Assembly (NCBI GenBank): GCA_013288345.1
Contig: JABDCA010000024.1
Span: 1 to 44,910, forward strand
Source of the DNA: Bacteroidota bacterium
GTDB lineage: Bacteria; Bacteroidota; Bacteroidia; JABEUT01
Reading direction: 5' to 3'
DNA length: 44,910 nt
Every line of letters starts with the position of its first letter. Position 1 is the stretch's first letter. The notes beneath the pieces are model-generated. The model was not told where the DNA came from. It saw only the letters and a list, made by a program, of their open reading frames with translations, and searched no databases. Below, piece after piece: positions 27,590 to 35,889 of this stretch. The position numbers and the translations under genes are program-made.

Positions 27590-28483
27590 TTATATTCTTT
27601 CTGCTATCCTCAATTTCGCACTGCGCGCTCTGCTGTTCGATGCTATTTCCTCTTCATTAGGAGCAAGAGGTTTTTTCGTTACAGGCTCAAAAGGGCGTAA
27701 ATCGTGCCCGTACATATTCTTTTGCGGAATGCCTTCAAAATTTCCGCTACGCATATAGTTCTTCACCAACCTGTCCTCCAATGAATGGTAAGAGATAATA
27801 ACCAAGCGGCCACCCTTCTTTATAACTGTTTCACTATGGCGCAATAGGTCTTTCAGTACTTCTACCTCTTCGTTCAGTTCAATACGTAATGATTGAAACA
27901 CCTGGGCCAAATATTTGTGCGCAGTTTGTGGAGGAGTGCAACCCTTAATAGCTTCTATTAAATCGGCAGTAGTCCGTATATGTTTTGCTGTTCTTGCTTT
28001 CTCAATTTGACGGGCAAGGTTTGCAGCGTTGGTTATTTCGCCATAAACCGAAAACATACTCTGCAGTTTTGCTACTGAATAGGTATTCACAATATCTGCC
28101 GCTGTACGTATTGTCTCGTTGTCCATGCGCATATCAAGCGGGGCATCAAAACGAGTAGCAAAACCACGCTCAGGTGTATCTATTTGGTGAGATGATATAC
28201 CGAGGTCAGCCAAAACGCCATCAACCTGAGTGATGCCTTTCTCGGCTAATTGTTCTTGTATAAAACGAAAATTAGAATGAATAAGCTCTAAACGTGAATC
28301 AGAGCCCATATTTTCAAATGCGTCCTTATCCTGGTCAAATGCTATTAATCTTCCGCCTTTAAGTTTTTCGAGTATTGCGTTGCTGTGTCCTCCTCCTCCG
28401 TATGTAGCGTCGACGTATGTCCCTCCATCTATGATGTTTAATCCTTCGATACTTTCATTCAGCAGTACCGCCCTATGATACAT
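27590..28483 (-). CDS. rsmH: 16S rRNA (cytosine-1402-N4)-methyltransferase RsmH
   Basis: SAM-dependent methyltransferase for C1402 of 16S rRNA in the ribosomal P site (formerly MraW). Motifs: MYHRAVLLNESIEGL at the N-terminus, SAM loop DATYGGGGHSNAIL, ADLGISSHQID, FQSLRIELNEEV and the late ISYHSLEDRLVKN. I chose the ATG at 28483 because homologues begin YHxPVLLNE; an ATG at 28498 in the same frame would add five residues. With this start it overlaps the end of mraZ by 11 nt. Length 297 aa. Confidence 0.95.
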   Translation of the reverse strand: MYHRAVLLNESIEGLNIIDGGTYVDATYGGGGHSNAILEKLKGGRLIAFDQDKDAFENMGSDSRLELIHSNFRFIQEQLAEKGITQVDGVLADLGISSHQIDTPERGFATRFDAPLDMRMDNETIRTAADIVNTYSVAKLQSMFSVYGEITNAANLARQIEKARTAKHIRTTADLIEAIKGCTPPQTAHKYLAQVFQSLRIELNEEVEVLKDLLRHSETVIKKGGRLVIISYHSLEDRLVKNYMRSGNFEGIPQKNMYGHDLRPFEPVTKKPLAPNEEEIASNSRARSAKLRIAERI

Positions 28484-28946
28484 TCCCGTTATTATCATTT
28501 GGTATTTTACCCATTACTTCTTCGGCAAGGGCGGCAAAATCATCAGCGCCCTGCTTCATGTATTTATTGTATTCTTGTTTCGACCATACTTCAATGCGGT
28601 TCGAGAAGCCAAATAACACGGCATCTTTATCGACACCTGCATGCATCATTAGCGACTTAGGCAATAGCAAACGGCCTGAACCATCCAACTCTACTTCCGT
28701 TGCTCCAGCGTTGAACCTTCTCACAAACTCTCTGTCTTTCTGTTTATAGAGATTGAGCTTACTGAAGCTTGCTGTTTCTTTATCCCACTCCTTACGCGGC
28801 CAGATATTAAGCTGCTTATCAAGCCCGCGGTTAACAACAAAATGCTTTTGCTCCTTAGCAGGCAACTGCTTCTTAAAGCCAACAGGAAGCATGAGCCTCC
28901 CCTTGTCATCAAGCTTGCATTCAAATTCGCCTATTAGAGCCGCCAT
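28473..28946 (-). CDS. mraZ: Transcriptional regulator MraZ
   Basis: First gene of the dcw cluster; an AbrB-fold DNA-binding protein that forms ring-shaped oligomers and controls its own operon. Two copies of the SpoVT/AbrB-like motif are visible: GEFECKLDDKGRLMLPVGFK at the start and ATEVELDGSGRLLLPKSLM around residues 80-100, each with the family DxKGR/DGSGR core. Length 157 aa. Its recognition sites lie directly upstream (28987-29011), pointing to autoregulation. Confidence 0.96.
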   Translation of the reverse strand: MAALIGEFECKLDDKGRLMLPVGFKKQLPAKEQKHFVVNRGLDKQLNIWPRKEWDKETASFSKLNLYKQKDREFVRRFNAGATEVELDGSGRLLLPKSLMMHAGVDKDAVLFGFSNRIEVWSKQEYNKYMKQGADDFAALAEEVMGKIPNDNNGNVS

Positions 28947-29249
28947 TTAGGTTGTTTTTATTGAGGTGTAAAAGTAGCGAAAAAATTCCCACCTTTTACC
29001 ACTTTCTCCCACTTTGTTGAAAACTTTAATTAATTGTTAATTTTCCGGCACAAGGAAATATTTTCGAATGCGCCTTTAGGCAGGCGATTCAGAGGAAATA
29101 TTACTGGTAAAACGTTATTAACTTTTTTGTGGGAGAAAATTGAAATTGTGGAAAAGAATCATAAAAATTCCTGAGTCATTGCCCGAAACCCTTAATAGGG
29201 AGTATTTAAGAAATTTTGAAGGGGAAAATGTGGGAGAGATGAGTAGGAA
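28947..29249. other. 303-nt intergenic region: dcw promoter/operator
   Basis: Between the mraZ start and the stop of the GT-C/TPR gene upstream. It holds the three MraZ boxes, a near-consensus -7 box (28969-28976, minus-strand TACTTTTA, one mismatch to TAnnTTTG), and two isolated plus-strand TGGGA motifs (29130-29134, 29231-29235). The frame open on the plus strand here has no coding character; I see no gene. No clear terminator is visible behind the GT-C gene. Confidence 0.65.
28987..29011 (-). promoter_or_regulatory. MraZ operator: three TGGGN5 repeats
   Basis: On the minus strand, in reading order toward mraZ, TGGGA (29007-29011), TGGTA (28997-29001) and TGGGA (28987-28991) are spaced exactly 10 nt apart. 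Tandem TGGGN motifs separated by 5 nt are the established MraZ-binding pattern. The nearest box ends 41 nt before the mraZ ATG, just upstream of the candidate -7 element, a good position for repression. Confidence 0.88.
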
Positions 29250-31292
29250 TTATTTATTCCCTTTGTCCTTATTGCACTTTGCTATTTTGTCTTGTATATC
29301 CTTATTCTCAGGGTCTATTTTTAGCCCCATTTTCAAATAAACAATGGCATTATCATAATCCTTTAAGGCAGTGTAGCACTCAGCTAATGTCAGGTATGCA
29401 TTTATATTTTGCGGGTTCAGTTTTAATGCTTCCTTAAAGAAGCTTATGCCTTCGTTTTTATGTCCGGCATTATATAAAATGGCGCCTTTATCAAACACTA
29501 CTTTATAATCTTTGGGAGAGTACTTTATAGCACTATCAATGCATGCAAGCGCTTTATCGTAATTAGTTAACCCGTTGTTATAACAATCGGCCAGGTTCAT
29601 ATACGCCTCACCATAACCCGGTTTAATTTGTATTGCTTTGTTAAGCAATTTCATTGCTCCGGAGAAATTATTTTTGGCAATCAGCATTTCTGCGGCATGG
29701 TTTAAATATTCAGGAGTCTGCGGAATATACTTTACCCTATATAAGTAATAGTCCTCACCAATTACAGAATTTTCAAAGGTTTCTATTTGCGTCCAACCCA
29801 TTGCCCTATAATCCTTGAAAGGATATGTCAATACAAGGACCAAATCAGTTTTCTTTTCATTTAATACCTTACTTACTTCACTCAGCAAATCTTGTTCACT
29901 AAAGTTGATAAAAGGGCCCCAGTTCTGATCGGGCAAGATGAATTTACCCCATTTTTCAGGACGCATATAATACATGTCGTGGTCGAGTATACCTGCAACA
30001 CCCGATGCCATAAAATCACCATCACCAAGTAAAGGCAGGCTATCCAGTCCGTTTTTATGGATGTATTGCGCCACAGGAATATTATTTGAGAAAGTGTATT
30101 TAACATCGAGTGTATTGGCACAACAGGAAGCCACAACCTGCACAATTAATATCAGTATTACAAAACAACGGCTTACTATTCCGCTTATCTTATCCTTAAT
30201 TACGGAACTATCGCTACAATAAAGCCAGTAACAAAGAACAAATAACAGGAATAGATGCCCATGATGCCTTATATAGCCATAGTATTTAACGTAAATAAAT
30301 AAAGCCTCGCCTATAGTGCCAATACAAAACAAGAGCAGTATTTTTTTATTATTCCTGAATAACATAACCGCCAATGAAAGGATGACCAGGCTAAGTATTG
30401 CTTCAATAAAAGAGTGATGAGGGAAATGATCTAAGGTATTGGTGCTCCAGAAATGAGAATTGAGTAAAGGCATTGGAAAGTATGTAGTAAATACGGTAGA
30501 TAATACATACATAATATGATGTGCATCCGGCTTGAATGTCCACGTAGAAAATGCTGAATCAGCAGGAGGAAAAGCAGTAAGTGCAGCAACTATAATTCCT
30601 GCCAGAATAATAAAAGTAGGCAAAATGAATCGCTTACCGTTGGCTTTATTTGCTTCCCAACTATTCCATACTATATAGATGAAAAACGGCACACCTATTA
30701 TTATGGCAAACACATTGGTTTGAAAAAGCAGGAAGAACAATACGGACAAGAGGCCTAAATATTTACCTCGATACTTAGTATATATACCCGCACATAAAAA
30801 GAGGAAGACTAATTCTACCGAATAGTTCCTGCTAATTATTGAATACTCATAGCTGAAGAAATATCCTGCACAAAATAATATGTTTTGCCATAAGCCAAAG
30901 GTGGAAAAGAAACAAAAAACAAAAACGGCACATGCTGCAATAAATACATGCACAACCTGCATTGAGAAGTAGTTGACCGTGAACTTTTGCAGAAAGAACA
31001 AAATAAGGAACCACATTTGCGGGTGACCCTCATATCGGGTATTATAAAGAAGCTCACTAAAGGAATGGCTGCACCTGACTATCTCCCATGCATGAACCTC
31101 ATCGCCCCACAATTCATGATAGTGAACCAGAATAAACTCAATTAAAAAGAAAACCATAGAAACAAGCAATGCCTGAACCATTTTACTGTTCCGGAGAAAA
31201 CCACTTGTTTCTTTTACTTCACTCTGCATCACCTGCTGCTTCTTATTATAGGACAAAGTTACGCTTATCTCATTATTTAAGTTTTCCTGCAT
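29250..31292 (-). CDS. GT-C-like membrane protein with C-terminal TPR repeats
   Basis: After a short charged N-terminus, about ten hydrophobic segments fill residues 35-370. The first loop reads ELWGDEVHAWEIVR and later EGHPQMWFL, the Asp-Glu and HP pattern of GT-C glycosyltransferases (GT39/GT83-like), which use lipid-linked sugars at the outer face of the membrane. An extracytoplasmic domain follows, then about four TPR repeats in the last 150 residues (for example YGEAYMNLADCYNNGLTNYD). I set the start at 31292 because the longer frame overlaps the divergent acyltransferase gene and its promoter; an ATG at 31229 is also possible. Length about 680 aa. Substrate unknown; possibly linked to the lipid genes across the divergent promoter. 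Confidence 0.75.
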   Translation of the reverse strand: MQENLNNEISVTLSYNKKQQVMQSEVKETSGFLRNSKMVQALLVSMVFFLIEFILVHYHELWGDEVHAWEIVRCSHSFSELLYNTRYEGHPQMWFLILFFLQKFTVNYFSMQVVHVFIAACAVFVFCFFSTFGLWQNILFCAGYFFSYEYSIISRNYSVELVFLFLCAGIYTKYRGKYLGLLSVLFFLLFQTNVFAIIIGVPFFIYIVWNSWEANKANGKRFILPTFIILAGIIVAALTAFPPADSAFSTWTFKPDAHHIMYVLSTVFTTYFPMPLLNSHFWSTNTLDHFPHHSFIEAILSLVILSLAVMLFRNNKKILLLFCIGTIGEALFIYVKYYGYIRHHGHLFLLFVLCYWLYCSDSSVIKDKISGIVSRCFVILILIVQVVASCCANTLDVKYTFSNNIPVAQYIHKNGLDSLPLLGDGDFMASGVAGILDHDMYYMRPEKWGKFILPDQNWGPFINFSEQDLLSEVSKVLNEKKTDLVLVLTYPFKDYRAMGWTQIETFENSVIGEDYYLYRVKYIPQTPEYLNHAAEMLIAKNNFSGAMKLLNKAIQIKPGYGEAYMNLADCYNNGLTNYDKALACIDSAIKYSPKDYKVVFDKGAILYNAGHKNEGISFFKEALKLNPQNINAYLTLAECYTALKDYDNAIVYLKMGLKIDPENKDIQDKIAKCNKDKGNK

Positions 31293-31307
31293 CTCCCAAT
31301 CAATTAT

Positions 31308-31315
31308 TATATTTG
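31308..31315 (+). promoter_or_regulatory. -7 promoter box for the lipid acyltransferase operon
   Basis: TATATTTG matches TAnnTTTG, 43 nt before the GTG start at 31351. A -33 TTTG is not evident. It lies in the gap between divergent genes. Confidence 0.45.
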
Positions 31316-31350
31316 TTACGATTGTAGTAAACAAAATAAGGCTTATACTA

Positions 31351-32208
31351 GTGGATAAGTTAGAGGTAAATATAGAAGAACTATTGCGCACCAAAGCACC
31401 CGGCGCATACAAATTCATTCCCCGGTTCCTAATTAAGTATGTAGAAAGGATTGTTCATGCCAAGCAAATAAATTATTTTTTAGATAACCATAGGGAAACC
31501 AAGGGAGTTGAATTCGTAAATGCAGCCCTTGCCTATATGGGTGCCAATGTATTAGTTGAAGGAATTGAAAACATCCCTAAAGAGGGAGGCTATATTTTCG
31601 CAGGCAACCATCCCCTGGGTGGGCTTGATGGACTTGCAGTTATCAGCTCAATAGCAAAAGTACGTACCGATATTAAGTTTTTTGTAAACGAGCTTTTGCT
31701 GACCTTAAAAAATCTCGATAATATTCTTGTACCGGTAAATATAAATGGTAATAGTAGCAGGCAAATGCTTGAGTTGGTAGAAAAAATATACAGTTCTGAT
31801 TATGCCATTCCTATTTTTCCTGCGGGCTTGGTTTCACGCAGACAGCCGGATGGAAGTATAAAGGACCTGCGCTGGAAAAAGAGCTTTATTACCCAGGCCA
31901 AGCATTTTAAAAAAGATATAATACCTATTTGGGTAGAAGGGAAAAATTCGAATTTCTTTTATCGTTTTGCTCAATGGCGGAAAAGGATAGGCATAAAGCC
32001 CAATATCGAAATGTTCTTCCTTCCGGATGAGATGTTTGGCCAGAAAGACAAGCGCCTGGTGGTGCATTTTGGAAAACCCGTTTCTTTCACTACCTTTATG
32101 GAATGGCAAAACGATGCAAAAATGGCAATCATGTTCCAGGATGAACTTTATCGTAAAAAAGAAAATATTGTAAGGGAGCCTTTATTTACCGCTCCTATTA
32201 AAATGTGA
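31351..32208 (+). CDS. PlsC-like acyltransferase (GlsA/OlsA-type candidate)
   Basis: Lysophospholipid acyltransferase-family protein. The acyltransferase motif is NHPLGGLDG with His87 and Asp93, that is H-x5-D instead of the textbook H-x4-D; later FPAG (IFPAGLVSR) corresponds to the glycerol-phosphate-type substrate motif. No N-terminal membrane helix is obvious. The next gene encodes an OlsB/GlsB-like N-acyltransferase. The same pairing of O- and N-acyltransferases makes glycine lipids in Bacteroides (GlsA with GlsB) and ornithine lipids in proteobacteria (OlsA with OlsB). I infer an O-acylation of a monoacylated amino acid; ordinary phosphatidate synthesis is the alternative. Start is GTG; 285 aa. 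Confidence 0.8.
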   Translation: MDKLEVNIEELLRTKAPGAYKFIPRFLIKYVERIVHAKQINYFLDNHRETKGVEFVNAALAYMGANVLVEGIENIPKEGGYIFAGNHPLGGLDGLAVISSIAKVRTDIKFFVNELLLTLKNLDNILVPVNINGNSSRQMLELVEKIYSSDYAIPIFPAGLVSRRQPDGSIKDLRWKKSFITQAKHFKKDIIPIWVEGKNSNFFYRFAQWRKRIGIKPNIEMFFLPDEMFGQKDKRLVVHFGKPVSFTTFMEWQNDAKMAIMFQDELYRKKENIVREPLFTAPIKM

Positions 32209-32228
32209 CACGCTAAAAATATACTGTT

Positions 32229-33179
32229 ATGCAACCTATAATCCCACCTATTCCAGTTGATGTACTGGCATCTGAGCTTACCCGCGACAAGTTTGTGCGC
32301 AATACCAATTATGGCAAGAACGAAATATATATTGTAACGCATCATAATGCTCCTAATGCAGTAAGAGAAATTGGCCGGTTGCGCGAACTAACATTCCGCT
32401 ATGCAGGTGGAGGAACAGGCAAGGCACTCGACCTTGATGAGTTCGACACCAACGAAAAGCCTTATAAGCAACTTATTGTTTGGAGCCCTGATGATAAAGC
32501 CATTGTAGGTTCATACCGATTTATCTGCTGCAAAGATGCTCCTGTAAAAAATGATATTATTCAATTAGCAACGGTGGAGTTATTCGAATTCAGCAATAAA
32601 TTTTTGAAAGACTACTACCCTACTACCATTGAATTAGGCAGGTCTTTCGTACAGCCTGACTACCAACCCTCATCGGCTAACCGCAAAGGATTATTCTCTT
32701 TAGATAATTTATGGGATGGCCTTGGTGCACTGGTTGTAGATTACCCGAATATGAAATATTTTTTCGGTAAAGTAACTATGTACCGCGATTTTAATGTTCG
32801 TGCCAGGGATATGATATTGTATTTTATGCAATATTATTTCCCTAATAAAGATAATCTGGTTGTACCTATTGATGCATTGCCACTTAACCACGATATGCGC
32901 AGGTTTGCAGCCAAGCTAAAAGGCAAAGATTATAAGGAAGGGCATGCCATACTTAACCAGGCAGTAAGAGCATTGGGAGAAAATATACCTCCATTAGTAA
33001 ACTCCTACATGAACCTTTCATCGACCATGAAAACCTTTGGCACCTGCCTTAACCCCGAATTTGGTGGTGTAGAAGAAACAGGAATATTAGTAACCATACC
33101 CGATATATACCCAAGTAAAAAAGAAAGGCATATCGATTCGTACCTGAAGCAGAAAGAAAAATACAAAATGCACTCCTGA
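32229..33179 (+). CDS. GNAT-fold N-acyltransferase (OlsB/GlsB-type)
   Basis: Resembles the hemolysin-like acetyltransferase group that includes OlsB and GlsB, which transfer a 3-hydroxy fatty acid from acyl-ACP to the alpha-amino group of ornithine or glycine. Visible: REIGRLRELTFRYAGGGTG at about 44-62, the LIVWSPDDKAIVGSYRF strand pair, and ATIELGRSFVQPDYQ-like core (TTIELGRSFV, about 135-150). Length 316 aa. It lies 20 nt behind the PlsC-like gene and 13 nt before the hydroxylase gene, all on one strand, so they very likely form one operon. Which amino acid is acylated cannot be told from sequence. Confidence 0.82.
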   Translation: MQPIIPPIPVDVLASELTRDKFVRNTNYGKNEIYIVTHHNAPNAVREIGRLRELTFRYAGGGTGKALDLDEFDTNEKPYKQLIVWSPDDKAIVGSYRFICCKDAPVKNDIIQLATVELFEFSNKFLKDYYPTTIELGRSFVQPDYQPSSANRKGLFSLDNLWDGLGALVVDYPNMKYFFGKVTMYRDFNVRARDMILYFMQYYFPNKDNLVVPIDALPLNHDMRRFAAKLKGKDYKEGHAILNQAVRALGENIPPLVNSYMNLSSTMKTFGTCLNPEFGGVEETGILVTIPDIYPSKKERHIDSYLKQKEKYKMHS

Positions 33180-33192
33180 TAATAATAATGGA

Positions 33193-33951
33193 ATGAGTGA
33201 GGCATTATGGTATGGCACTTCTAAACAAGATTACAGCAATAACAATACACGCTACTATAATGTAAGCGATTATTCGTGGGCTAGTGATATTGAAAAAAAC
33301 TGGCCGATTATAAAAGAAGAAGTACAAAACTTTATTGCAGAAAAGGATAACGTTTTTGTATCAAATGCTATAGCCTATAAAGGAATAACATCGGCAAAGG
33401 GTTGGAGTTCCTTATCATCTATGTTCTGGGGCTTGTATTCAAATAATGAGCCTGCACAAAAATGCCCAACTTTATTCAATATGCTTTATAAGGTTCCGGG
33501 AATTGTCTCCATATCATTCAGCCGGCTTGAACCGCAAACTAAAATAAACGAACACCACGGAGAAACTAACGCCATTATTCGCTGCCACATGGGCATTGAG
33601 GTTCCGGCAGGCTTACCGCTATGCGGAATGAAGGTAGCCGGAGAAGAAAAATGCTGGGAAGAAGGTAAATGGCTGTTTTTTAATGATGCCCAAAATCATT
33701 TTGCCTGGAACAATACAGATAAAAGACGTATCATACTTATTGTAGATGTAATACGCCCTGAGTTTATAAACCGGAAAAATGCTATTTGTGCAAGGGTACT
33801 TACTGAATATGCAATGGGCCAGAGAGAAAACAAATACAGTTCTGTAAAAAACTTACCTGAAGGAGTAAAAAAACTATTGGTGATGATTGCTATACCTATA
33901 GTATATGTAATAAGGCCCGTATCTAATCTTTTGAAAGGTAATGCCAACTAA
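33193..33951 (+). CDS. Membrane-associated Asp/Asn beta-hydroxylase-family oxygenase
   Basis: Fe(II)/2-oxoglutarate-dependent oxygenase of the aspartyl/asparaginyl hydroxylase family (LpxO/OlsC/OlsD relatives). The iron site is given by His122 in HHGETN and His169 in NHFAWNN, with the 2-oxoglutarate-binding Arg at 178/179; the RCHMGIEVP strand lies between. Near the C-terminus KLLVMIAIPIVYVI is a hydrophobic stretch that could sit in the membrane, as in lipid hydroxylases. As third gene behind two acyltransferases, a role in hydroxylating an acyl chain of an amino-acid lipid is a reasonable inference. 252 aa. Its end lies 2 nt from the convergent methyltransferase gene with no terminator between. 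Confidence 0.82.
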   Translation: MSEALWYGTSKQDYSNNNTRYYNVSDYSWASDIEKNWPIIKEEVQNFIAEKDNVFVSNAIAYKGITSAKGWSSLSSMFWGLYSNNEPAQKCPTLFNMLYKVPGIVSISFSRLEPQTKINEHHGETNAIIRCHMGIEVPAGLPLCGMKVAGEEKCWEEGKWLFFNDAQNHFAWNNTDKRRIILIVDVIRPEFINRKNAICARVLTEYAMGQRENKYSSVKNLPEGVKKLLVMIAIPIVYVIRPVSNLLKGNAN

Positions 33952-33953
33952 GG

Positions 33954-34754
33954 TTACCCTCTTTTTCTGAAAACAAACAGCTTAAAAGGAAATTTCCCAT
34001 CAGCCATTGACTTATACGTATTGGAATCGGTGGTAACCATAAAATCTTTTGCTATTGAAACCGGCATCCAAAAAGGTTTTTTATTTAAGTCTAACAGTAT
34101 CTCTTGCCTTGCACTAAGAACTGATTCAGTAATATCTCTTTCTGATATCTTGGCCATACCGGCATTTATTAGCGCATCTGCAAATGACTTAAAATCACTC
34201 TCTACCAAAAGGTCTCCATATGCAAAGTAGCCGCCCGGTTTTAATAAACGAATCACTTCATTACAAAACTTAGTATCGCGGGCAGGATATCCATGAGATG
34301 ATTCGAGGTTTACAATCACATCAAATGATTCATTTTCGAATTCCATATCCTCAGCATCCATTCTGAAGAATTTCAGGTTTGGAAAATCGTATAATTTTTT
34401 ACACCTGACAATATTCTTATCTGAAAGATCTATTCCTGTTACGATATCAGGCTTATAATAATTCACTAAAAAATATCCCCCACTTCCGAACCCACAGCCA
34501 GCCTCCAATACATTTTTACCATTAACATCAACGCCTTTAAGCAATTCATTATACATCTGAAAATGAAACCTATATGGTTCATCTTTATCAAGCAATGCTA
34601 ATTTTTCAGTTGAGGTGCAACCCAGGTTCATAAAACGCACCTTACTATTATGTTTAACTATAATATTGGCATACCGGTTATAAACAAACCTTCTGAGCTT
34701 TTTCTTTAACACAGGGGGAACCATCGAAACTATTTTGGTAAGAATTCCCGCCAT
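33954..34754 (-). CDS. Class I SAM-dependent methyltransferase (lipid-type)
   Basis: SAM motif I is VLEAGCGFGSGG at about 82-93, followed by TGIDLS (acidic loop), FRMDAEDMEFENESFDVIVNLES (motifs II/III) and RLLKPGGYFAYGD. The N-terminal part (FMNLGCTSTE, FHFQMYNELL) resembles methyltransferases of mycobacterial lipid and other polyketide-lipid pathways. Length 266 aa. Its start overlaps the sulfotransferase stop by 1 nt, so the two are co-expressed. A lipid or sugar-lipid substrate is an inference from family look and neighbours. Confidence 0.8.
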   Translation of the reverse strand: MAGILTKIVSMVPPVLKKKLRRFVYNRYANIIVKHNSKVRFMNLGCTSTEKLALLDKDEPYRFHFQMYNELLKGVDVNGKNVLEAGCGFGSGGYFLVNYYKPDIVTGIDLSDKNIVRCKKLYDFPNLKFFRMDAEDMEFENESFDVIVNLESSHGYPARDTKFCNEVIRLLKPGGYFAYGDLLVESDFKSFADALINAGMAKISERDITESVLSARQEILLDLNKKPFWMPVSIAKDFMVTTDSNTYKSMADGKFPFKLFVFRKRG

Positions 34755-35824
34755 TATTTCTTGTTTTTCTTTTTATTCTTACCCCGCAACATTTCTAATA
34801 TTGGAATAATTACATTTTTATGGGTATTTATTAATCGCCTGTACTTAAGTATGCCAAAGTATTTAACCACATAATAATATGTCCATTTTATTTTAAGCAT
34901 CCGTAATGGGCTAATGCTGATCTTCTTTATTTCGGCGCTTTGTTCATAGCCATACTTTTTCTCTGCATAGCTTCCGGCAATAGCTTCAGCAATGGCAACA
35001 TCTTCGGCGGTTAATTCTTTTTTCCATTTATCTATCATTGCCTTGTCAATAGATTTGAATAAGGCTTCATGAAATCTCATAAAACTATTGTCGTCAGTAT
35101 ACTCTTTAAATTTTGGAAACACTTTTTGGTCATGCTTTTCAATCATCTCTTTATTGAACGAAACACCCAAAAAGCTGCATATATTTTTCATTACCATTTC
35201 TGTATCAGTAACTAACGACTCATATTTTAGCGTGAACCATTTTTGCGGGGCCTTGTTCTTTGCCTCTTCAATAAGCTGGTTTACCCGCACCCACCTGTAA
35301 GCCATATCAGCAGTATCGAGGTTCAATATCCAACTGATTTTTTTATGGCTGGCTATATTGGCCCTATAATCGCGTACTATATGTATGAACTTTGCATCAG
35401 GAAATAGTTTAACCAGTTCGGGAATAAAAAAACAGTATAGCGGGTTTTTGTCTATGAATACGTTTACATCTGTCTTAGTCAGGTCAAACTGCATATAAAT
35501 AAACTTGGCAACCAATTGATACGTCAGGACTTCTTTTACATCTGTTAAAGAAGCAATGAGTTTTTCTTTATCAATGTTCCAATAGTTCTGAATAAACTGT
35601 TCTTCAAATAGTTCGTCACAAAACAAGCGGATATCCTTATCGCTCCACTTCACCTTTTTACCATATCTCAAATATTGCTTGAGAATAAAGCGAGACTCGG
35701 GTGGAGCAATTATATGAGGATGTGCATTAAGCATTACCTGTAATAAGGTGGTACCCGAGCGCTCCTTCCCGATTATGAAATTTAAAGGAGTCTTATTTAT
35801 TCTGTCAATGTTCTCTTGGGTCAT
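34754..35824 (-). CDS. PAPS-dependent sulfotransferase
   Basis: Transfers sulfate from 3'-phosphoadenosine 5'-phosphosulfate to a hydroxyl or amine. The 5'-phosphosulfate loop is GKERSGTTLLQ at about 19-29 and the 3'-phosphate motif HIVRDYRANIASH lies near residue 150. A basic, lysine-rich C-terminus ends the protein (356 aa). Sequence type is that of the broad Sulfotransfer_3 group, which includes enzymes for lipids and carbohydrates. No cysteate or capnine pathway gene is nearby, so this does not look like the classic sulfonolipid route. Forms a pair with the downstream methyltransferase. Confidence 0.85.
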   Translation of the reverse strand: MTQENIDRINKTPLNFIIGKERSGTTLLQVMLNAHPHIIAPPESRFILKQYLRYGKKVKWSDKDIRLFCDELFEEQFIQNYWNIDKEKLIASLTDVKEVLTYQLVAKFIYMQFDLTKTDVNVFIDKNPLYCFFIPELVKLFPDAKFIHIVRDYRANIASHKKISWILNLDTADMAYRWVRVNQLIEEAKNKAPQKWFTLKYESLVTDTEMVMKNICSFLGVSFNKEMIEKHDQKVFPKFKEYTDDNSFMRFHEALFKSIDKAMIDKWKKELTAEDVAIAEAIAGSYAEKKYGYEQSAEIKKISISPLRMLKIKWTYYYVVKYFGILKYRRLINTHKNVIIPILEMLRGKNKKKNKK

Positions 35825-35862: not shown

Positions 35863-35889
35863 TTTATATCGCTAAAATCGCTAAGTTTG
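35863..35889 (+). promoter_or_regulatory. Promoter of the lipoprotein/outer-membrane protein pair
   Basis: TAAGTTTG at 35882-35889 is an exact TAnnTTTG box. Nineteen nt upstream, TTTA at 35863-35866 is one base off the -33 TTTG consensus and correctly spaced. The predicted start near 35895 supports translation from the ATG at 35917. Confidence 0.55.

Follow-up and report, generated by a model that had tools for sequence, protein, structure and literature searches.

What is an iron- and 2-oxoglutarate-dependent hydroxylase doing directly behind a pair of lipid synthase genes? The question is raised by a stretch of 44,910 nucleotides (nt) from a Bacteroidota bacterium (JABEUT01; assembly GCA_013288345.1, contig JABDCA010000024.1), referred to here as the window. 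Three genes follow each other on its forward strand: glsA (31351..32208, 285 aa, GTG start), glsB (32229..33179, 316 aa, ATG start) and a PF05118 Fe(II)/2-oxoglutarate (2OG) hydroxylase gene, HYD (33193..33951, 252 aa, ATG start). A sequence-only reading had joined them into one pathway for a hydroxylated amino-acid lipid, and its three open reading frames (ORFs), their common strand and the gaps of 20 and 13 nt are all confirmed. The explanation that we favour, with a little more confidence than doubt, is another one: HYD would be a tailoring enzyme of a pathway for an acylated, possibly sulfated amino sugar that now lies behind glsAB, while glsA and glsB would be an ordinary pair. The argument starts from the family of the hydroxylase, continues with the genes that accompany its relatives, and then returns to the place behind glsB.

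The hydroxylase and its place in the PF05118 family

HYD matches PF05118 with 135 bits. The two iron-binding histidines and the 2OG-binding arginine are present (H121, H169 and R179, which with R130 are encoded at about 33553, 33697, 33727 and 33580, respectively). A quick tree was built from 88 rows, 82 of them hydroxylases from the fetched loci (ORFs under 190 aa excluded) and six of them plasmid references, and was rooted at its midpoint. It falls into two sides across a branch with SH-aLRT support of 100: three OlsC references and one LpxO reference, the latter a single long branch, stand on side A, and HYD stands on side B. Among the 60 side-B rows, one of which is a plasmid reference, H121 is found in 58, and R130, H169 and R179 in all 60. 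The side labels cover PF05118 matches of at least 105 bits, except for one of 107 bits (G099, C17:51627-51986); matches of about 80 bits or less are unplaced, and their genomes are counted below among the “others”. Three adjacent PF05118 genes from different parts of the tree occur at five loci (L066 2321-4543, L094 5844-8115, L095, L096 and L099 5898-8084), and a contig scan with the hydroxylase as query returned one relative locus.

The assignment of the enzyme to the LpxO/OlsC group does not survive these comparisons. HYD shares with these lipid acyl hydroxylases the PF05118 family and the catalytic residues, but it scores 118 bits on the OlsC model NF052565 (cut-off 450) and 77 on the LpxO model NF033391 (cut-off 500), whereas three plasmid references reach 530-536 bits on the former and the Caballeronia one 506.8 on the latter. 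It also lies across the strongly supported branch from these references, and in another gene context. Membership of either family was thus rejected, and HYD is, judged on its sequence, a 2OG hydroxylase by family that is neither OlsC nor LpxO; no model for OlsD was among its hits. As to its description as membrane-associated, this part of the sequence-only reading finds a basis in a single hydrophobic stretch near the C-terminus (19-residue mean of 1.76 from residue 225) and in a C-terminal helix (residues 223-248) in a structure predicted from 34 sequences with a mean pLDDT of 92.3.

Could HYD act instead on a protein? The human enzyme AspH, whose substrate is a peptide, provides the sole strong matches to HYD in the Protein Data Bank (PDB; best E 1.3e-17), and residues 31-193 of HYD, only about 160, align with it, the iron-binding histidine pair and the 2OG arginine being in register. 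In addition, 5 of the 44 side-B loci (and 4 of the 23 on side A) have Cupin_8/JmjC-like genes within 6 kb. HYD might then hydroxylate a protein or peptide side chain, its location by glsAB and sulfotransferases being incidental. We regard this as quite improbable: the surroundings of the side-B genes are made of acyl-ACP and sugar-transfer genes.

A recurrent, putative acyl-sugar island

These surroundings are best described as an island comprising a 3-ketoacyl-ACP synthase III (KASIII), an acyl carrier protein (ACP), a second KASIII, a ketoreductase, an ArnC-like family 2 glycosyltransferase (GT2) and a PseH-like GNAT. An ACP-like ORF of 80 residues separates the two KASIII genes in the window's genus; outside this genus, many side-B hydroxylases adjoin an operon of KASIII, KASIII, ketoreductase, GT2 and GNAT. 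Of the 44 side-B loci, 18 have both a KASIII and a GNAT gene within 6 kb, against none of the 23 loci on the OlsC/LpxO side; for sulfotransferases, the counts are 12 of 44 and 1 of 23. It should be kept in mind that relatives are not independent in these counts, L094, L095 and L096 being near-copies. At the scale of whole genomes, 395 of the class were sampled: 75 contain PF05118, and 246 match GlsB if distant OlsF-like matches are counted. The side-B clade co-occurs with the island GNAT: a match of at least 60 bits (71 genomes, of 85 with any match) is found in 35/35 side-B genomes and in 36/360 others (Fisher p 1.4e-30, uncorrected for kinship).

The same association is seen within the window's genus, where HYD is present in 5 of 11 genomes and the GNAT in 6, all five being among the six. 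Three further genomes of the genus (G007, G008 and G010) have glsB and gave no GNAT or HYD match, at completeness values of 99, 61 and 84%, so that they may be incomplete; their E1-like gene, which flanks the island elsewhere, was found without an adjoining island, the other flank not having been sought there. In the window's own genome (G000), the island occupies about 67.9-73.9 kb of contig C1, with GCSG cysteine motifs in the KASIII proteins and the ACP-like ORF, and a single PF05118 gene was found in the assembly, that of the window. Here, as in G009 and G004, the island sits between a phosphoribosyltransferase gene and the E1-like gene (85-89% and 90-94% identical to those of G000), with no HYD or sulfotransferase match between these flanks in the three genomes. 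In G002 and G006, the stretch between the corresponding flanks (65-66% and 84%) contains, besides the island, HYD, a member of the sulfotransferase clade ST-alpha described below, further sulfotransferases and other genes. HYD and ST-alpha are there on one contig with the GNAT, about 17 kb (G002) and 14 kb (G006) away from it. Several Cupin_8/JmjC-like oxygenase genes are also seen in the islands of G006 and G002 (L059 10282-13584; L132 892-3096).

How might such an island work? By analogy, it would make a short hydroxyacyl group to be placed on an amino sugar. The two KASIII enzymes, the ACP and the ketoreductase would build the (hydroxy)acyl group, which the PseH-like GNAT would transfer to the amino sugar; the ArnC-like transferase, which carries two hydrophobic stretches near its end and suggests an undecaprenyl-phosphate carrier, would load the sugar onto undecaprenyl phosphate. 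In this probable order, HYD would then hydroxylate the amide-linked acyl part of the sugar, and the nearby sulfotransferase would sulfate the product. A related chemistry is predicted for the O-polysaccharide of Flavobacterium psychrophilum: in the portions of PMC6519341 available, the R-group genes wfpC-wfpG comprise two 3-ketoacyl-ACP synthases, an ACP, a reductase and an acyltransferase that are predicted to make 3,5-dihydroxyhexanoyl and place it on the 4-amino sugar Qui2NAc4N. The likeness, drawn from descriptions of the genes, has its limits: wfpG is a pglD homologue where the island has a PseH-like GNAT, and no hydroxylase, sulfotransferase or ArnC-like gene was met for wfpC-wfpG in those portions (PMC6519341).

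In the window's species and two relatives, a hydroxylase and sulfotransferases are found behind glsB, with the rest of the island elsewhere, and HYD would probably be read through from glsA-glsB. The simplest account, in which both the move and its direction are inferred, would have the genes for the hydroxylase and a sulfotransferase leaving the island, or being copied out of it, to end up behind glsB.

The glsAB pair and the variable zone behind it

The pair itself would seem to need no special explanation. GlsA scores 327 bits on the equivalog model NF053697 (curated cut-off 260) and GlsB 475.8 bits on NF053696 (curated cut-off 300); the matches to PF19576 and PF01553 (GlsA), PF13444 (GlsB) and PF05118 (HYD) each exceed their own cut-off as well. 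The earlier identification of a PlsC-like O-acyltransferase and an OlsB/GlsB-like N-acyltransferase is thereby upheld, with the pair placed by curated models on the glycine branch. Since both proteins pass these cut-offs, glycine is the predicted head group, and from the choice of glycine or ornithine originally offered it is our best guess; the ornithine models score low (192 and 203 bits on OlsF against a cut-off of 620, the latter for GlsB, and 19 bits for GlsB on two OlsB models). The window GlsA has the motifs NHPLGGLDG and FPAG (NHPLGGLD and FPAG are found in 8/8 GlsA proteins among the sequences listed), with an H-x5-D spacing unlike the H-x4-D usual in PlsC; a PDB search with GlsB gave no match at E up to 1. 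On this sequence basis, glsA and glsB very likely make a known bacterial glycine lipid: going by their families, GlsB would couple a 3-hydroxyacyl group to glycine and GlsA would put a second acyl chain on the 3-hydroxyl. What distinguishes the pair from the known GlsA/GlsB synthases, which it resembles by its scores and the adjacency of its genes, is the variable set of hydroxylase and sulfotransferase genes behind it in the window's genus, the head group being a prediction here. In G007, glsA and glsB are on separate contigs (C60, L137 1587-2567 (-); C180, L062 9992-11044 (-)), unlike all other genomes of the genus holding both, where they share one.

Is the three-gene order conserved? A PF05118 match and a GlsB match of at least 277 bits (the lowest score among the matches listed, used to call a genome GlsB-positive) occur together in 28 genomes. 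The two genes are adjacent in three of these, G000, G009 and G005, which belong without exception to the window's genus; the remaining 25 have them on separate contigs or more than 50 kb apart. Conservation of the order beyond one genus is not borne out, and the absence of conservation in relatives, one of the two refutations that the sequence-only reading had named, is therefore nearly reached; the other, an N-acyltransferase outside the OlsB/GlsB clade, did not come about. The contents behind glsB also differ: HYD, a methyltransferase and a sulfotransferase in the window; a hydroxylase, a sulfotransferase, an SDR gene and a second sulfotransferase in G009; a hydroxylase and two sulfotransferases in G005; and a sulfotransferase, directly behind a glsB whose product is 93% identical, in G004 (68% complete), where no PF05118 match was found. 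Even the nearest genomes differ in this way, which makes a variable zone of the stretch from glsB to the gene at 35887. Compared with the window, GlsB is 94% identical in G009 and 91% in G005, GlsA 84% and 77%, the syntenic ST-alpha 53% and 52%, and HYD 51% and 43%; this contrast, taken with the identities of the island genes given below, speaks for the amino-sugar reading.

A variable zone invites the idea of a recombination hotspot gathering surface-glycan genes, in which the copies would have no pathway role. The varied content of the four nearest genomes (the window's, G009, G005 and G004) is what such a hotspot would give, but the reading frame of HYD and its catalytic residues are intact, and we think this very improbable.

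A more serious contender, though still a doubtful one, is that HYD hydroxylates the GlsA/GlsB glycine lipid, giving a hydroxylated, perhaps sulfated or methylated product. The tight co-directional spacing in three genomes (9-13 nt between glsB and the hydroxylase gene) and the neighbouring methyltransferase, whose best scores are on lipid O-methyltransferase models, below their cut-offs, keep it alive. So does the chemistry of the phylum, as far as it is covered by the portions of the papers available: an Olivibacter yielded a hydroxylated N-acylglycine, (2,3,4-trihydroxy-15-methylhexadecanoyl)glycine, and the lipoamino acids of Chitinophaga eiseniae bear hydroxylated ester-linked chains (PMC8433624), which shows that hydroxylated lipoamino-acid chemistry exists in Bacteroidota, while the enzyme hydroxylating the ornithine/lysine lipids of Pseudopedobacter is reported as undetermined (PMC4484230). 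Against it stand the adjacency in just 3 of the 28 sampled genomes where both genes occur, in one genus; the position of HYD off the OlsC/LpxO side of the tree; the 11/35 side-B genomes that have no GlsB of 277 bits, when 0/35 have no island GNAT; and G004, whose 93%-identical GlsB is followed by a sulfotransferase and no hydroxylase. If true, it would mean a new enzyme assignment and not a new kind of lipid.

The three glsB-adjacent hydroxylases may, from their sequences, not be one lineage. The copy in G009 groups (98/95) with two paralogues placed elsewhere in G002 and G006, and a single clade of the three is weakly rejected by an AU test (p 0.025; 0.042 for two rows), a borderline result, obtained after the quick tree had been viewed, which permits more than one transfer event.

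Several of these observations weigh against the favoured assignment of HYD to the amino-sugar pathway. The first is its location, which is outside the island in the window's genome and inside it in G002 and G006. A gap of 9-13 nt between glsB and the hydroxylase gene recurs in all three genomes with the adjacency, and if the G009 copy is another paralogue, this place would have been filled twice, which could mean selection for it. GlsB is itself commoner in side-B genomes (24/35 against 126/360 others, p 1.8e-4), although the contrast between 35/35 for the GNAT and 24/35 for GlsB is independent of kinship-inflated p-values. At 14 of the 44 side-B loci, no GNAT, sulfotransferase or Cupin_8 gene lies within 6 kb. 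The two sugar enzymes stay below the cut-offs of their closest models, with 169 of 529 bits on ArnC for the GT2 and 61 of 93 on PseH for the GNAT. Within the genus, HYD is more divergent than every island gene compared (identities of 56-59% for one KASIII, KAS3A, 57-68% for the GNAT, 58-66% for the GT2 and 72-77% for the other KASIII, KAS3B). Finally, the G000 assembly, which is 87% complete, gave no APS kinase match (such a match exists in 6 of the 11 genomes of the genus), which leaves the supply of sulfate donor unproven. In a further reading, two paralogous hydroxylase lineages might have reached the spot behind glsB with sulfotransferase and methyltransferase genes, and their present product might be a glycine lipid that is hydroxylated, sulfated or methylated; a glycan-tailoring cassette would then have been turned to a membrane lipid in this genus. 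We consider this unlikely.

Neighbouring genes and significance

Past HYD and on the opposite strand lie two genes that the sequence-only reading did not mention. A SAM methyltransferase gene (33954..34754, reverse strand; PF13649, PF08241) is convergent with HYD, the ORF ends being separated by 2 nt; the best NCBIfam models are phthiotriol-dimycocerosate (163 of 300 bits) and fatty-acid O-methyltransferase (144.6 of 400). It is followed by the sulfotransferase gene ST-alpha (34754..35824, reverse strand; PF13469, 124.5 bits). ST-alpha belongs to a clade of six members, each from a different genome of the genus: in G000, G009, G005, G002 and G006 the gene is beside or near HYD, and in G004 it adjoins glsB; the tree covers fetched contigs, and thus leaves aside other sulfotransferases of the genus, including 100-bit matches in G001, G002 (C126), G006 (C119) and G009 (C97). 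Of the 13 loci where a sulfotransferase gene occurs within 6 kb of the hydroxylase gene, 8 have the two tail to tail, with ends that overlap or are separated by less than 50 nt; the methyltransferase occupies this place in the window. The eight loci (L053, L054, L059, L086, L093, L103, L109 and L111) come from several families. The cassette does not stand out as clearly foreign by its base composition (a GC fraction of 0.377 in HYD, 0.358 in the methyltransferase gene and 0.354 in the sulfotransferase gene, against 0.395 for the window).

Upstream, a multi-transmembrane protein with C-terminal TPRs is encoded divergently from glsA (29250..31418, reverse strand; TPR Pfam matches, nine hydrophobic stretches). 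Since the start as called falls within glsA, translation probably begins further inside the ORF. It has syntenic copies in L053 and L055, and 17 of the 44 side-B HYD loci have a broadly similar membrane/TPR protein within 6 kb, where the BLAST match may rest on the TPRs alone. Next comes an mraZ-like ORF (28473..28946, reverse strand) near the end of a cell-division (dcw) cluster; the names nuo, mraZ and dcw are those that we take to fit the ORFs. Homologues of this ORF are beside or near glsA in L053, L054, L055, L063 and L072, and glsA is near the mraZ-like gene and the cell-division cluster in G009, G005, G004, G010 and G015. A promoter pattern scan (-33/-7) of 28901-33300 found none, with a -7-like TATATTTG at 31308.

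Where, then, might the hydroxylases of amino-acid lipids be sought in the phylum? Family f44 has OlsC-like hydroxylases at ten loci (L071 9757-10530 (-), L073-L077, L079, L080, L082 and L083), all of which group with the three OlsC references in the quick tree, the L071 protein scoring 345 bits on the OlsC model (cut-off 450). Twelve f44 genomes contain a distant match to GlsB whose long reading frame (638 aa in G053) suggests OlsF; PF05118 is found in 10 of them. By their sequences, these proteins are better candidates for the ornithine/lysine-lipid fatty-acyl hydroxylase that the available part of PMC4484230 reports as undetermined.

A literature search for an island combined with a hydroxylase and a sulfotransferase returned no matching paper at a strict setting and none among the titles viewed at a looser one, which does not show the island to be unpublished. 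The analysis corrects a tempting three-gene pathway call. It also connects a hydroxylase clade awaiting characterisation with an island that recurs in Bacteroidota and combines acyl-ACP synthesis with ArnC-like/PseH-like sugar steps, often with sulfotransferases; mass spectrometry could be used to look for the product of this island.

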